A stretch of 64,000 bases of DNA from Flavobacterium degerlachei (GTDB lineage Bacteria > Bacteroidota > Bacteroidia > Flavobacteriales > Flavobacteriaceae), in assembly GCF_900106645.1 (NCBI RefSeq), contig NZ_FNMV01000004.1:124001-188000 (forward strand). Reading direction: 5' to 3'. The first letter of the stretch is position 1. Each line of letters opens with the position of its first letter. The notes beneath the pieces were generated by a model. It ran no database searches. It was not told the origin of the DNA and saw only the letters and a list, made by a program, of their open reading frames with translations. Shown here one piece after another: positions 20,707 to 24,547 of the stretch. Both the position numbers and the translations under genes were made by a program.

Positions 20707-22674
20707 TTGAGTAATAATACAAAACCAACTTCAACTACTTTTAGATCTTATTTCTTTTCACGAGAAAACTTGAGGTTTAATATTCATAATTTAAGTTATT
20801 TGCCACGGTGGATAATTGTCATGATGGATTTTGCAGTTTTAATATTGGCTTTTTTCTTTACTTTTCTATTGTTTAGAGGAACAGGATTAGATTATATAAT
20901 AACAGCTCACAGTATCATTTTTATTAACTTGTTGCTTGGTGTGAATATATTTTTCTTTTGGTTATTTCGGACCTATTCTGGAATTATCAGGCACTCCTCC
21001 TATATTGATGCAGTGAAGCTTTTATTTTCTCAAATGGCTGTGCTAATTGTTTTTCTAGTATTGAATTTTTTATTTGAAGTACTTTATGGAACTAAAGCGT
21101 TTTTGAATACCGCACTTTTTATGAATATGGTTTTGTCTTTCTGCGGTTTATTTTTATATCGTGTGATTGTAAAGCAAACTTTCGAACATTATTTTCAGGA
21201 AAAAAGCGATGTTAAATTGATAAGAACAGTAATTTATGGAACGGATGCCAATGCAATGTCTATAGCTAATGCATTGAAAATTGAAACACCAAGCCGTTTT
21301 AAAATTGTTGGATTTGTAGATAGAAACAGTCAAAACTCTTCCAAAAGAATGTTGGATTTACCAATATTAGTATTAAAGAAAAAGTTACCCACCCTAATGC
21401 GATCTGTTGGCGCGGAAGGCGTTATTATAGCAGATAAAAGTTTGTCAAAAGAGGAACGTCTAATTATTGTAGACCAATGTCTGGAATTCAATTATAAAGT
21501 GTATATCCTTCCTGTAATTACGGATTGGGAAGATCAAAAGGAAATTTCCCAAAAGGTAAAGAACTTACAAATTGAAGATTTGCTGGAAAGAAAAGCTATT
21601 GTTTTGGATAATAAATCTATTTCCAAACAGTTGAAAGATAAAACTGTACTGATTACAGGTGCTGCAGGTTCTATTGGAAGTGAAATAGTAAGACAGGTTT
21701 TGGGCTTTAATCCCAAAAGGATTATTATATTAGATCAGGCTGAAACTCCTTTGCATCATCTTAGTTTAGAGACGCAAAATAGTACTTCAAGTGCGGAAAT
21801 ACGCAATGTAGTTGCAGATATTAGAAATAAAGAAGCATTGACTAATGTGTTTAAACTTTACAAGCCGCATGTTGTGTTTCACGCAGCAGCCTATAAGCAT
21901 GTGCCTTTAATGGAAGAAAACCCAGCGCAAGCTATTCTTACTAATATTGGAGGGACAAAAAATTTATCTGATTTAGCATGCGAATATAATGTCGTTAAAT
22001 TTGTCATGGTGTCTACAGATAAGGCGGTGAACCCAAGTAACGTAATGGGAGCCAGCAAAAGAATAGCTGAAAAGTACGTTCAGTCATTGCAACTAAAAAG
22101 CCGAAAAGAAAATAATACAAAAGCAACAAAATTCATTACCACCCGTTTTGGAAATGTTTTAGGGTCTAATGGATCTGTAGTTCCTTTGTTTAGCAAGCAA
22201 ATAGCGGATGGTGGTCCAATAACCATAACACATCCCGACATTATCAGATATTTTATGACCATTCCAGAGGCTTGTCAACTAGTTCTTGAGGCAGGAGCGA
22301 TGGGTAATGGAGGTGAAATCTATATTTTTGATATGGGCAAGCCGGTAAAAATTATCGATTTAGCAAGAAAGATGATCAAGTTGGCTGGATTTATTCCTGA
22401 AAAGGACATTAAAATAAAGATTGTAGGCTTACGACCAGGAGAGAAGTTATATGAGGAATTGCTTAACGACACCTCTAAAACAATACCGACCTACCATGAA
22501 AAAATTATGATTGCAGAAGAAATTCAGGATGAGTATGAAAATCTACATACTGATATAGAAGACCTTATTGGAATCGCCAACTGTTATGAGAATGACGATA
22601 TAGTTGCGAAAATGAAGAAAATAGTTCCGGAATTTAAAAGTATGAATTCAGCTTACGAAGTTTTAGATAAGTAG
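20707..22674 (+). CDS. UDP-GlcNAc 4,6-dehydratase, membrane-bound (PglF/WbpM-like)
   Basis: 655-residue protein with about four N-terminal membrane helices (residues 30-160), a CoA-binding-like middle domain, and a C-terminal SDR dehydratase domain with ITGAAGSIGSE near 313. The catalytic residues are S436 (VSTDKA), M447 and K451 (NVMGASKRIAEKY): Met replaces the usual Tyr, as in the Ser-Met-Lys triad of WbpM-type enzymes. The start is TTG at 20707; no ATG precedes the conserved N-terminus. It supplies UDP-4-keto-6-deoxy-GlcNAc to the PglE-like aminotransferase and perhaps to the epimerase at 13008. Confidence 0.95.
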   Translation: MSNNTKPTSTTFRSYFFSRENLRFNIHNLSYLPRWIIVMMDFAVLILAFFFTFLLFRGTGLDYIITAHSIIFINLLLGVNIFFFWLFRTYSGIIRHSSYIDAVKLLFSQMAVLIVFLVLNFLFEVLYGTKAFLNTALFMNMVLSFCGLFLYRVIVKQTFEHYFQEKSDVKLIRTVIYGTDANAMSIANALKIETPSRFKIVGFVDRNSQNSSKRMLDLPILVLKKKLPTLMRSVGAEGVIIADKSLSKEERLIIVDQCLEFNYKVYILPVITDWEDQKEISQKVKNLQIEDLLERKAIVLDNKSISKQLKDKTVLITGAAGSIGSEIVRQVLGFNPKRIIILDQAETPLHHLSLETQNSTSSAEIRNVVADIRNKEALTNVFKLYKPHVVFHAAAYKHVPLMEENPAQAILTNIGGTKNLSDLACEYNVVKFVMVSTDKAVNPSNVMGASKRIAEKYVQSLQLKSRKENNTKATKFITTRFGNVLGSNGSVVPLFSKQIADGGPITITHPDIIRYFMTIPEACQLVLEAGAMGNGGEIYIFDMGKPVKIIDLARKMIKLAGFIPEKDIKIKIVGLRPGEKLYEELLNDTSKTIPTYHEKIMIAEEIQDEYENLHTDIEDLIGIANCYENDDIVAKMKKIVPEFKSMNSAYEVLDK

Positions 22675-22787
22675 TCTTGAATTCATTCTGGCTTGCATAT
22701 TTAGATTTGATTGTGTTTTAGAACTTATTGAGATGAATCTGATTTAAATCTCAATTTAAAACAAATATTGCCTCAAAAAAAGACAGA

Positions 22788-22828
22788 CGAATTCCCCTTT
22801 TCAGAGGAGTTAGGGGTGTGTCTTTTTT
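22788..22828 (+). repeat. Left terminal repeat of the DUF559 element
   Basis: Contains CGAATTCCCC, a small hairpin (CCTTTTCAGAGG) and AGTTAGGGGTGTGTC followed by a T run. It matches 23684-23724 in direct orientation. Its GTTAGGGGTGTGT part matches the DUF559 gene 3' end (23219-23246) in inverted orientation. The T run after the hairpin could also make it act as a terminator for the PglF-like gene. Confidence 0.75.
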
Positions 22829-22848
22829 GATCAATTTACCACTTATCT

Positions 22849-23274
22849 ATGGCTAAAAGAAAAATCATTCCCTATAATCCAATACTTAAAGAATTTGCTC
22901 GACAACTGCGAAATGATTCTACCAAAACAGAAATCTTTCTTTGGTTGAAATTAAAAGGGAAGCAGATGCATGGATATGATTTTCACCGACAAAAACCGAT
23001 TGACAATTATATTTTAGACTTTTTTTGTAACGAATTAATGCTTGGGATTGAAGTCGACGGCTATTCTCATGAGTTTTTGGAAGTCTATACAAAAGATGGA
23101 GTGAAGGAAAACCGAATGAATGAATTGGGGATTGCCGTTTTGAGGTTCAGCGATGAACAGGTTTTAAAGGATATGGAAAATGTTATTCGGGCTATTGAGT
23201 TTTATATTTTTGAGTATGAAAAACACACCCCCAGCCCCTATAACTCTAGATTATATTTGTTTTGGAATCGTTGA
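22849..23274 (+). CDS. DUF559 nuclease-like protein
   Basis: 141-residue DUF559 protein, a family with a Vsr-like PD-(D/E)XK nuclease fold. Candidate active-site residues are E28 (TKTEIFLWLKLKGKQ), D57 in NYILDFFC, and E68/D70 in GIEVDGYSH, followed by RFSDEQVLKDMENVI. Residues after about 124 (EKHTPSPYNS) are encoded by an inverted copy of the repeat found upstream, so the C-terminus seems to be read through a flanking repeat. It is not functionally linked to the glycan genes around it. The role of DUF559 proteins is not established; a selfish or DNA-processing function is possible. Confidence 0.88.
   Translation: MAKRKIIPYNPILKEFARQLRNDSTKTEIFLWLKLKGKQMHGYDFHRQKPIDNYILDFFCNELMLGIEVDGYSHEFLEVYTKDGVKENRMNELGIAVLRFSDEQVLKDMENVIRAIEFYIFEYEKHTPSPYNSRLYLFWNR
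23219..23246 (-). repeat. Inverted repeat at the 3' end of the DUF559 gene
   Basis: AAAACACACCCCCAGCCCC and the following TATAACT are the inverted counterpart of AGTTAGGGGTGTGTCTTTT at 22808-22826, with a few insertions. The repeat overlaps the coding sequence of the last part of the DUF559 gene. Confidence 0.7.
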
Positions 23275-23291
23275 ACCTGAAACGGTTTCAA

Positions 23292-23699
23292 GAGGGGAGT
23301 TAGAAGGGCAATAAACGGCTGTTGTTTTAGTTTAGAATTTCAAATTGAAAAAATAATTTCTCAAAAATAGTCGTAAACGAATTCTCCTCTTCAGAGGGGA
23401 GTTGGAAGGGCAATAAAGGGCTGTTGTTTTAGTTTAGAATTTCAAATTGAAAAAATAATTTCTCAAAAAATAGACGCAAACGAATTCTCCTCTTCAGAGG
23501 GGAGTTAGAAGGGCAATAAACGGCTGTTGTTTTAGTTTAGAATTTCAAATTGAAAAAATAATTTCTCAAAAATAGTCGCAAACGAATTCCCCTTTCAAGA
23601 GGGTAGTTAGAAGGGCAATAAACGGCTGTTGTTTTAGTTTAGAATTTCAAATTGAAAAATAATTTCTCAAAAATAGTCGTAAACGAATTCCCCTCTTGA
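23292..23699 (+). repeat. Four tandem ~102-bp repeats
   Basis: Units start at 23292, 23394, 23497 and 23599 (spacing 102, 103, 102). Each has GAGGGGAGTTAGAAGGGCAA or a close variant, then CTGTTGTTTTAGTTTAGAAT, TTCAAATTGAAAAA, an A-rich part, and ends in CGAATTC plus a short hairpin such as CCTCTTCAGAGG across the unit junction. Copies are near identical. After the fourth unit the pattern switches to the terminal form with GTTAGGGGTGTGTCC. No spacers differ between copies, so this is not a CRISPR. Confidence 0.93.
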
Positions 23700-23724
23700 G
23701 AGGGGTTAGGGGTGTGTCCTTTTA
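23684..23724 (+). repeat. Right terminal repeat of the DUF559 element
   Basis: Direct repeat of 22788-22828. It contains CCCCTCTTGAGAGGGG, a perfect 7-bp stem with a 2-base centre, followed by TTAGGGGTGTGTCCTTTT. The hairpin plus T run could terminate transcription. Confidence 0.75.
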
Positions 23725-23806: not shown

Positions 23807-24547
23807 TTATTCCAACTTAAAAAACTGATTATTGGCTATTATCTCTTTTAAGGGAACTAAATCTTTCAATTTTACTTTCTGTTCAAATGCTGCGATATGT
23901 TTGTCATGATGTACATCAGAACCTACATAAGTATACATTCCTTTGGTAAGTAATTGTTCTGCTATTTTAGTGATGCTTTCACCGTAATAACCTACAACAG
24001 CTAGAAGATTCAGTTGAAACAGGCAACCCGCTCTTTTTAGTTTGACATACTCGTTGAAATTATTGTGATAAAACAAATAACGCTCTGGGTGTGCCAAAAC
24101 AGGAATGTATCCCGCCACTTGCAAGTCAAAAAGGATGGAGTATAATTGTATAGGAGCATTTATATATGACATTTCAACCAAAACGTAATTGCCTTTAAGA
24201 GTTAATAAATCATTGGACTGAAAAAGTTGTACAAACTGATCATCCATCAAATATTCTGCTGCTGCTTTAAAAGGAAGCTTTATGTTGTTTTTTTCTAGTT
24301 CCAGGACTGTCTCATTTTTATTGGAGACGATTTGCTCATGGGTATTGTCCCAGACATGCTGGATGATATGTGGTGTAGTGATAATCTCTGTCACTCCAAA
24401 GCCCTGAAGCGCTTGGGTAAGTCGTAAACTGTCTTCAAATGTTCGGGCACCGTCATCTATACCCGGCAAAAGATGCGAGTGAATGTCTATATGACCATCT
24501 GGAATCAGATCCTTTAAAACCGACTTATTTTTAGAGAAAAAAAACAC
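23807..24547 (-). CDS. PHP-type tyrosine-protein phosphatase (CpsB/YwqE-like)
   Basis: 246-residue PHP-domain metallo-phosphatase of the CpsB/YwqE family, which dephosphorylates tyrosine kinases that control capsule or exopolysaccharide assembly. Metal ligands are visible in HIDIHSHLLPGIDDGA (H23, H25), TTPH (H60), AHPERYLFYH and YVGSDVHHDKH near residue 220. Full length. It is transcribed away from the ABC exporter operon and against the upstream glycan operon. No cognate BY-kinase is encoded in the window. Confidence 0.93.
   Translation of the reverse strand: MFFFSKNKSVLKDLIPDGHIDIHSHLLPGIDDGARTFEDSLRLTQALQGFGVTEIITTPHIIQHVWDNTHEQIVSNKNETVLELEKNNIKLPFKAAAEYLMDDQFVQLFQSNDLLTLKGNYVLVEMSYINAPIQLYSILFDLQVAGYIPVLAHPERYLFYHNNFNEYVKLKRAGCLFQLNLLAVVGYYGESITKIAEQLLTKGMYTYVGSDVHHDKHIAAFEQKVKLKDLVPLKEIIANNQFFKLE

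Follow-up and report, generated by a model that had tools for sequence, protein, structure and literature searches.

Homing endonuclease genes of the LAGLIDADG family are nested unspliced in the rps3 gene of fungal mitochondria, i.e., in an organellar gene and without palindromic ends. The family of the 'Fractured genes' (Dassa 2009) reportedly belongs with the EDxHD homing endonucleases. A named example of the EDxHD family is I-Bth0305I, described in the accessible part of PMC3943268 as an enzyme of the phage type that has long additional regions for DNA binding. In REP/RAYT systems (REPtrons, REPINs), an enzyme gene is flanked by its own palindromes with clade-specific ends, and REPs are also reported inside genes, recB among them (PMC3733652, as excerpted). 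The enzyme of these systems is an HUH tyrosine transposase and their ends are GTAG-tagged. Rickettsia palindromic elements (RPEs) of ~150 bp are palindromic inserts translated in frame in unrelated genes (excerpts of PMC10969869 and PMC3733652), and the CGTC repeats, whose tag is found on RPEs, apparently have no dedicated transposase as far as the available portion of PMC3733652 extends. A DUF559 protein, VsrA of Caulobacter, is required for the SOS response in cells without the methyltransferase ScmA, and was modelled as a repair nuclease and interpreted as a mismatch-repair enzyme (PMC12907096, in the sections available). Since VsrA is a presumed repair enzyme, not every DUF559 protein need be selfish.

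The locus considered here is a DUF559 gene with hairpin repeats of Flavobacterium degerlachei (assembly GCF_900106645.1, contig NZ_FNMV01000004.1, positions 124,001 to 188,000); the analysed stretch of 64,000 nucleotides is hereafter called the window. REP/RAYT systems are resembled at the level of the family to which this locus belongs by the inverted palindrome pair, the dispersed solo ends and the inverted doublets, the window's own pair being below the threshold applied here. Unlike these systems, the enzyme is a Vsr-like DUF559 protein, whole elements including the enzyme are situated inside conserved genes, and the ends read by inspection are GGGGTGG, TTAGGGGTGTGT or a C-run, with no GTAG tag among them. 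Likeness to the EDxHD homing endonucleases comprises the kinship in fold and sequence to I-Bth0305I, the conserved E, D, H, and D, the predominant association of each clade with a single host gene, and the patchy occupancy of homologous sites. In contrast to these enzymes, neither intron nor intein was found and the nuclease is read within the host protein as one of its internal domains, inverted palindromes bound the nuclease, and end-only copies disperse; whereas long extra DNA-binding regions are described for I-Bth0305I, Pfam finds the DUF559 domain only. The likeness to RPEs concerns the in-gene relatives and not the intergenic copy of the window, and is drawn from the insertion habit, not from sequence; different from RPEs, the version found here carries a conserved nuclease. 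With the rps3 nucleases, the elements share a nuclease gene in a conserved gene without self-splicing. Each of the ingredients has a known counterpart, and their combination with an unspliced in-frame nuclease in conserved genes appears to be new: no description of such elements was found in the literature on DUF559, on in-frame insertions in LeuRS, on REP, and on EDxHD, as covered by titles, the starts of abstracts, and few subscription papers.

Anatomy of the DUF559 locus

A sequence-only reading had proposed a mobile block at positions 22788 to 23724 that is bounded by ~41-bp direct repeats and comprises a DUF559 gene, at whose 3' coding end the left repeat recurs in inverted form, and four ~102-bp tandem units with hairpins. 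As features of the sequence, all of these were recovered. The direct repeat (22788-22828 and 23684-23724) matches at 36 of 41 positions, with 5 differing, and a longer form of 81 nt at 73% (22747-22827 and 23643-23723) was given by a repeat search. The DUF559 (PF04480) nuclease gene of 141 aa is located at 22849-23274 on the forward strand, as supported by a profile match, a structure model, and an alignment. The inverted copy at its 3' end (23223-23239 vs. 23701-23717) comprises 17 nt with 88% complementarity, and a further inverted pair (22805-22834 and 23210-23239) comprises 30 nt at 73%. The tandem array at 23291-23705 (forward strand) has a period of 102 bp, 4.1 copies, 94% matches, and a TRF score of 735, the next-best array of the window scoring 63; each of its four units contains a terminal-type hairpin with a decayed tail. 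At the end of the array, an intact clade-C repeat, CCCCTCTTGAGAGGGGTTAGGGGTGTGT (23684-23718, forward strand), constitutes the right-hand copy of the 41-bp direct repeat. On the left, a diverged partial copy of the spacer of the 102-bp unit is situated in direct orientation at 22743-22790 (forward strand; BLAST to the unit over 22743-22802 with 78% identity, E=9.6e-5). Beyond the four copies and this partial copy, just matches of 16-27 nt to the unit, with E of at least 0.028, were found in the genome. The motif TTAGGGGTGTGT occurs four times in the whole 3.86-Mb genome, two of these in the block, and its reversed pattern, used as a control, does not occur.

The role assigned to the direct repeats and to the array was not upheld. 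In the loci of the genus, of the phylum, and of named records described below, the recurring ends are an inverted hairpin pair and not the 41-bp direct repeats, and the 102-bp unit is found in this genome only here, arrays of other end repeats occurring elsewhere. The recurring unit is a DUF559 nuclease gene between inverted REP-like hairpins, which in the window extends over 22788-23303 and is thus smaller than the block initially noted. Its left end is the hairpin CCCCTTTTCAGAGGAGTTAGGGGTGTGTC (22788-22823, forward strand) of the clade C type common to other clade-C ends. The right end (23221-23303, reverse strand) is an inverted, long-loop variant of the repeat, ACACACCCCCAGCCCCT...TTCAAGAGGGGAG, recognised by sequence reading and repeat search, from which the C-terminal 'KHTPSPYNSRLYLFWNR' of the nuclease is translated; solo copies of a similar variant were observed in the same genome (L006, from 1501) and in genome G051 (L385). 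With an inverted-match score of 11.0, the window's own end pair is below the control threshold of 15.5. We infer that the 102-bp array and the direct repeats arose by local amplification of one end. The adjacent genes, which we take to be pglF-like on the left (20707-22674, forward strand) and cpsB-like on the right (23807-24547, reverse strand), were used for the comparison of empty sites.

A second DUF559 gene of the same genome is flanked by an inverted pair of a different hairpin repeat, CCCCTCC-TTT-GGAGGGG-TGTC...GGACGGGGTGGT, of which the copy 5' of the domain is located within the open frame and translated as '...SPPLEGCPQDGVV' (start codon chosen mechanically). Because this gene is also located between inverted hairpins, the genus was surveyed. 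The best explanation of the block in the window is that it belongs to a large family of selfish elements that is found in its phylum and, by record labels, in some other phyla.

Inverted ends in the genus and the phylum

PF04480 matches were obtained in 80 of 150 genomes of the genus (143 rows), of which 101 full-length matches (61 genomes) were fetched with their flanks and 42 partial matches below 40 bits were dropped. The dropped rows, scattered over many genomes, cover mostly the last ~40 positions of the profile (66-108) and probably belong to another nuclease family. For the end test, the best inverted match between the 300 nt preceding and the 300 nt following the domain was set against 1057 control placements in the same loci; 100 of the 101 loci were included, idx 48 being excluded due to its short flank. 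Inverted ends above the 99th percentile of the controls (15.5) were observed for 63 of the 100 genus elements and, each set being judged by the 99th percentile of its own controls, for 36 of 56 loci of a phylum sample and 28 of 49 loci from named records that encode a relative of the window protein. Thus the earlier proposal that a pair of repeats delimits DUF559 genes holds for these loci, but not for the 37 of 100 genus elements, including that of the window, in which no significant end pair was found. The phylum sample consists of 40 stretches chosen mainly for long frames, and therefore not a random sample, and 16 free-standing genes of the 30 listed. From the named records, 3 of 52 loci were left out due to short flanks; those above the threshold include Flavobacterium franklandianum, F. 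soyangense, F. xinjiangense, F. urumqiense, and F. gawalongense. Within the phylum sample, PF04480-type matches with E<=1e-12 were obtained for 126 of 296 genomes, which represent 79 of 139 genera. Clade-C-like elements, one of which (L429) has almost perfect inverted ends, are also present in metagenome-assembled contigs labelled Parcubacteria and Paceibacterota (L427, L429), due to either transfer or contamination. Over 42 nt, the two inverted ends agree almost perfectly at L337 and completely at L356 (G313), which suggests recent insertion.

The nuclease

The window protein matches PF04480 with E=2.6e-27 (95.3 bits vs. a curated cut-off of 20.6) and has the conserved residues E28, D57, E68, D70, H74, and D83. 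Among 100 domains (idx 100, with two internal stops, is absent from these counts and from the tree), E28 is conserved in 100, D57 in 99, H74 in 98, and D83 in 99. In our own assignment, the conserved E..D..H..D of DUF559 domains may be matched to the EDxHD residues. For the AlphaFold2 model (mean pLDDT 82.6), Foldseek places 3hrl first, followed by the catalytic domain of I-Bth0305I (3r3p_B, E=2.0e-4, prob 1.00, TMt 0.82), with weaker matches of the predicted structure to Vsr folds (E=0.15 and 0.33). The hmmsearch result (3hrl 5e-31, 3r3p 1.4e-6) agrees with this ranking. No HUH transposase domain was found in the window protein by Pfam, nor any other transposase domain in this sole gene of the element. 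An assignment to a defence system was rejected, the window protein being without PADLOC match, and so was an assignment to a phage family, for which phrog_503, a family with no assigned function, is the single match (E=7.2e-6). When fusions were subjected to PADLOC, that of RecG matched helicase-type models and that of MetH two weak models, one of them 'homing endonuclease' (4.4e-5).

Residence inside conserved genes

Of the 101 full-length genus matches, 43 are free-standing and 58 (42 genomes) are located in frames of more than 250 aa. The latter are distributed over metH (15 at site 1 and 6 at site 2), leuS (15, and 1 at a second leuS site), a gene for a RecB-like UvrD helicase (10), recG (8), and genes for type ISP restriction enzymes (3), one example per host gene having been named by profile search. 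In 54 of the 58 cases the frame is open into the host protein on both sides; three others are cut by contig ends and one (metH of G112) is frame-shifted in a C-run. The open frames run through the terminal palindromes as peptides, e.g., APPAPEGG and APPSGAGGAG, which would permit the element to reside in metH, leuS, recG, and other genes with no need for splicing. In-frame residence in conserved genes is the most striking form of these elements, and is beyond what the sequence of the window alone could reveal.

Host domains recognised by Pfam and NCBIfam around or beside DUF559 are those of MetH, LeuRS, RecG, UvrD/RecB-like proteins, type ISP enzymes, HsdR, HsdM, IcmF, and others. Among the matches listed for the phylum, long frames include HsdR, HsdM, IcmF, and other DNA methylases or restriction-modification enzymes; metH site 1 is occupied in four genomes from outside the family (L334, L336, L341, L344), recG (L331, L353) and leuS (L328, L330, L349) are occupied in other genera of the family, and in smaller frames DUF559 is fused to HisF, RNase HI, HemF, PurQ-like, and HutG-like proteins. 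The hosts of L335, L340, L343, L345, L346, L352, L361, L362, and L365, as well as further metH, recG, and leuS hosts of the phylum, were named from reading of the junctions only. Aligned for one RecG and one LeuRS, the insert is positioned between residues 514 and 519 of 1gm5 and between 236 and 243 of 1h3n, respectively, both being short stretches in the solved structures.

A group I intron was rejected as an explanation, as no Rfam intron reached the gathering score in six loci and the frames are open across the junctions in 54 of 58 cases. Likewise, an intein was rejected: 15 fusions show host domains, DUF559, and the overlapping MTES_1575, and no intein domain (Pfam, E<=1e-6). Several in-gene loci show further peculiarities. 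The type ISP enzyme of G046 (L149) apparently contains two solo read-through repeats, FPSSGGVSEGRGG, in frame besides DUF559; leuS of G146 (L145, idx 90) contains a long-branch nuclease (0.92 changes per column) without recognisable ends, which is probably decaying; and Flavo-1 RNA (RF01705) was found in recB-like and leuS loci and a SAM riboswitch in a metH locus (L072, L064, L059).

Our preferred reading, with a probability of roughly 0.6, is that of selfish elements which an EDxHD-like homing nuclease spreads with the aid of neither intron nor intein, and which are tolerated through their translatable palindromic ends. Such an element would consist of a gene for a ~110-residue EDxHD/Vsr-like (DUF559) nuclease between two inverted REP-like palindromes. 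The nuclease would cut a target allele without the element, which for the in-gene clades would be a single site within a single conserved gene, and the element would then be installed in a homing-like manner by repair from the copy that carries it. With the G/C-run palindromic ends presumably read in frame as short Pro/Gly-rich peptides, the host enzyme would remain functional and gain an extra domain. Loss of the nuclease would leave scars or end-only derivatives, and end-only copies of the free-standing clades may disperse like REPs and REPINs, their spread possibly being driven by the nuclease. The reading builds on directly observed features, namely anatomy, site clades, patchy occupancy, purifying selection, and co-occurrence.

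Occupied, empty, and scar-like sites

Across the 150 genomes, recG has an unbroken match at the insertion site in 135, is split there in 8, and gave no informative match in 7. Thirty unbroken sites were read, of which 28 are of the LWKKN(D/E)IPPH kind and two are scar-like, with LWQKGGGAIPPH in G101 and LWQKGGSAGGTQVPPH in G082. Three genomes have recG genes of extra length; that of G090 retains the end-like ASPSPSNDGAS, and those of G071 and G149 contain other short inserts. At metH site 2 of G105 (L249), both inverted ends are present in frame and the nuclease is absent between them. No target-site duplication was seen at recG, diverged relatives only being compared, and no exact pre-insertion sequence is definable from the sites compared.

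For the locus of the window, the 30 closest cpsB-like loci (own included) were inspected. A pglF-like gene is next in 14 of these, and DUF559 is located in between only at the window locus, so that 13 relatives with adjoining cpsB-like and pglF-like genes are empty; among the remaining 16 loci, two run off the contig. A sister nuclease in G145 is situated on the opposite side of cpsB. Empty sites, as looked for in the sequence-only reading, thus exist in relatives, and the block is not fixed at an identical site in all of them.

The loops of leuS and metH site 2 without DUF559 often carry other short in-frame repeats (L216-L245, L186-L215, L250-L264), such as QPTTDNRQPTT, LPTSNFQLL, VIASETKQS, and KVESQKSKVES, and represent a general hotspot of in-frame repeats. 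Due to these repeats, the loops may simply tolerate inserts.

Phylogeny and divergence of nuclease and host

In a tree of 100 domains and 108 columns, many forks of which are unresolvable, all in-gene rows except those of type ISP enzymes form one clade (55 rows, support 98/96). Within the in-gene rows, clades tied to a host were obtained for recG (8 rows, 100/100), the recB-like gene (10 rows, 99/91), and metH (21 rows, 100/100), whereas the leuS nucleases are not one clade and four changes are required on the tree. The nuclease of the window belongs to the free-standing clade 'C' (11 rows, TTAGGGGTGTGT ends); clade 'A', also free-standing, comprises 22 rows with mostly GGGGTGG ends. Values of dN/dS were 0.01-0.17 for the nuclease in the 19 of 22 chosen pairs that were computable, and the host genes carrying the insertion gave 0.00-0.09 in 12 pairs. 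Values this low suggest that purifying selection acts on both parts.

Site-specific clades and purifying selection on host and nuclease would also agree with DUF559 in metH, leuS, and recG being an old, vertically inherited domain of use to the host that was mostly lost, and with the free-standing genes encoding Vsr-like repair enzymes, as suggested by the work on Caulobacter VsrA (accessible part of PMC12907096). Divergence was compared in 28 host-selected pairs with a host pS<=0.60, which share genomes and are not independent. The nuclease is within the range of the host windows in 18 of these, in agreement with an old domain, but it is below every host window in seven, i.e., younger, and above every host window in three. 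Furthermore, an old domain is at odds with the occupation of recG in just 8 of 143 informative genes, with the scar-like and end-only derivatives, with the presence of DUF559 also in restriction-modification enzymes, isobutyryl-CoA mutase, and others, and with leuS nuclease 30, which is of another lineage than nucleases 45 and 50 despite close hosts (host pS 0.26 and 0.40, nuclease pS 0.64 and 0.72, respectively). We therefore regard this origin as improbable.

Nor is the nuclease generally younger than its host, nuclease pS being lower in just 9 of the 28 host-selected pairs; the comparisons indicating a younger nuclease in 11 of 12 chosen pairs and in 22 of 23 cases are biased, because the pairs were picked on the nuclease or its low divergence. 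Identities of host and nuclease are weakly correlated (Spearman 0.27 for recG, 0.19 for metH site 1, -0.04 for the recB-like gene, and 0.21 for leuS). From these sequence comparisons, we read the pattern at the sites as probable turnover in both directions, which is short of proof of homing.

Dispersed ends and their possible movers

The clade-C repeat AGAGGGGYTRGGGGTGTGT occurs 105 times in 18 of the 150 genomes and the clade-A repeat GGAGGGGTGN9CGGGGTGG 151 times in 37, both with no occurrence of the reversed control. Repeat C is present in 10 of 10 genomes with a clade-C nuclease vs. 8 of 140 others (p=4e-11), and repeat A in 20 of 21 genomes with a clade-A nuclease vs. 17 of 129 others (p=8e-14), kinship being ignored in both cases. 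Mean numbers of repeats beyond two ends per nuclease are 6.2 vs. 0.16 for C and 3.8 vs. 0.29 for A. As to whether the repeats are found independently of DUF559, a point on which the proposed block had been made to depend, the answer is mixed: they accompany the nuclease of their clade, but also occur in the mentioned 8 and 17 genomes without it. End repeats in tandem arrays like that of the window were noticed for clade A (G138:C1:95872-98037, ~153-bp period, 15 copies) and for clade C (G145:C1:74552-74855, 95-bp period, 4 copies).

Machinery other than the nuclease might move the elements, either a transposase of the Y1/RAYT type or recombination by the host among the dispersed palindromes, with DUF559 as a passenger or repair enzyme. 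Y1 transposases (PF01797) are indeed present in 101 of the 150 genomes, repeat C has a borderline link to strong Y1 matches (p=0.046), and the other in-frame repeats of the leuS and metH site-2 loops occur without DUF559. Over the same 150 genomes, however, no association with any Y1 match was observed for repeat A (p=0.15, and likewise p=0.15 for strong matches) or repeat C (p=0.23), in contrast to the association of both with their own DUF559 clade. Since the end repeats track this clade without a clear link to Y1, a Y1/RAYT mover was rejected, and the retained catalytic residues, the purifying selection on the nuclease, and the lack of an HUH transposase domain in the window protein according to Pfam also argue against a passenger; we give such machinery little credence.

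More weight, although it is still unlikely in our view, is given to the possibility that the nuclease itself cuts or nicks its own palindromic ends and that the whole unit, or one end by itself, is thereby excised and copied in a RAYT-like manner, the in-gene elements being a tolerated subset. This would be in agreement with the inverted ends of 63 of 100, 36 of 56, and 28 of 49 elements in the three sets of loci, with end types specific to the clade, and with the dispersed ends. Clade-A repeats form REPIN-like inverted doublets ~60 bp apart, three of which were read and folded (L398, L400, L403); these fold into very stable hairpins. Free-standing clade-C elements are located mostly at unrelated places, with 3 of 55 pairs sharing neighbours, for which transposition fits better than homing; clade-A elements share neighbours more often (22 of 171 pairs). 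On the other hand, the in-gene elements recur at the identical sites of metH (site 1), recG, and leuS in other families or genera, and the EDxHD relatives are described as homing endonucleases (PMC3943268, in the part available). Recurrence at the same host site suggests recognition of the host gene, but could also be explained by the tolerance of the loops. With homing as the preferred reading, a REP-like action on the own ends may operate too, chiefly in free-standing clades like that of the window.

Implications

It is tempting to regard the elements as a new autonomous class, 'nuclease-bearing protein-coding palindromes', whose ends would serve as translatable linkers, which would home into essential genes unspliced and give rise to end-only REP/REPIN-like derivatives; this classification is tentative and we hold it with somewhat less than even confidence. 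Should the homing reading be true, selfish nucleases could enter the coding regions of essential enzymes in bacteria unaided by introns or inteins, and DUF559 'fusion domains' in proteins such as LeuRS, MetH, RecG, and HsdR would have to be read differently. Furthermore, a testable mover would be given for in-frame bacterial palindromes such as RPEs. The family would also offer compact nucleases of ~110 residues with an apparent preference for sites in conserved genes, and experiments could draw on sites in the empty, the occupied, and the scar-like state.
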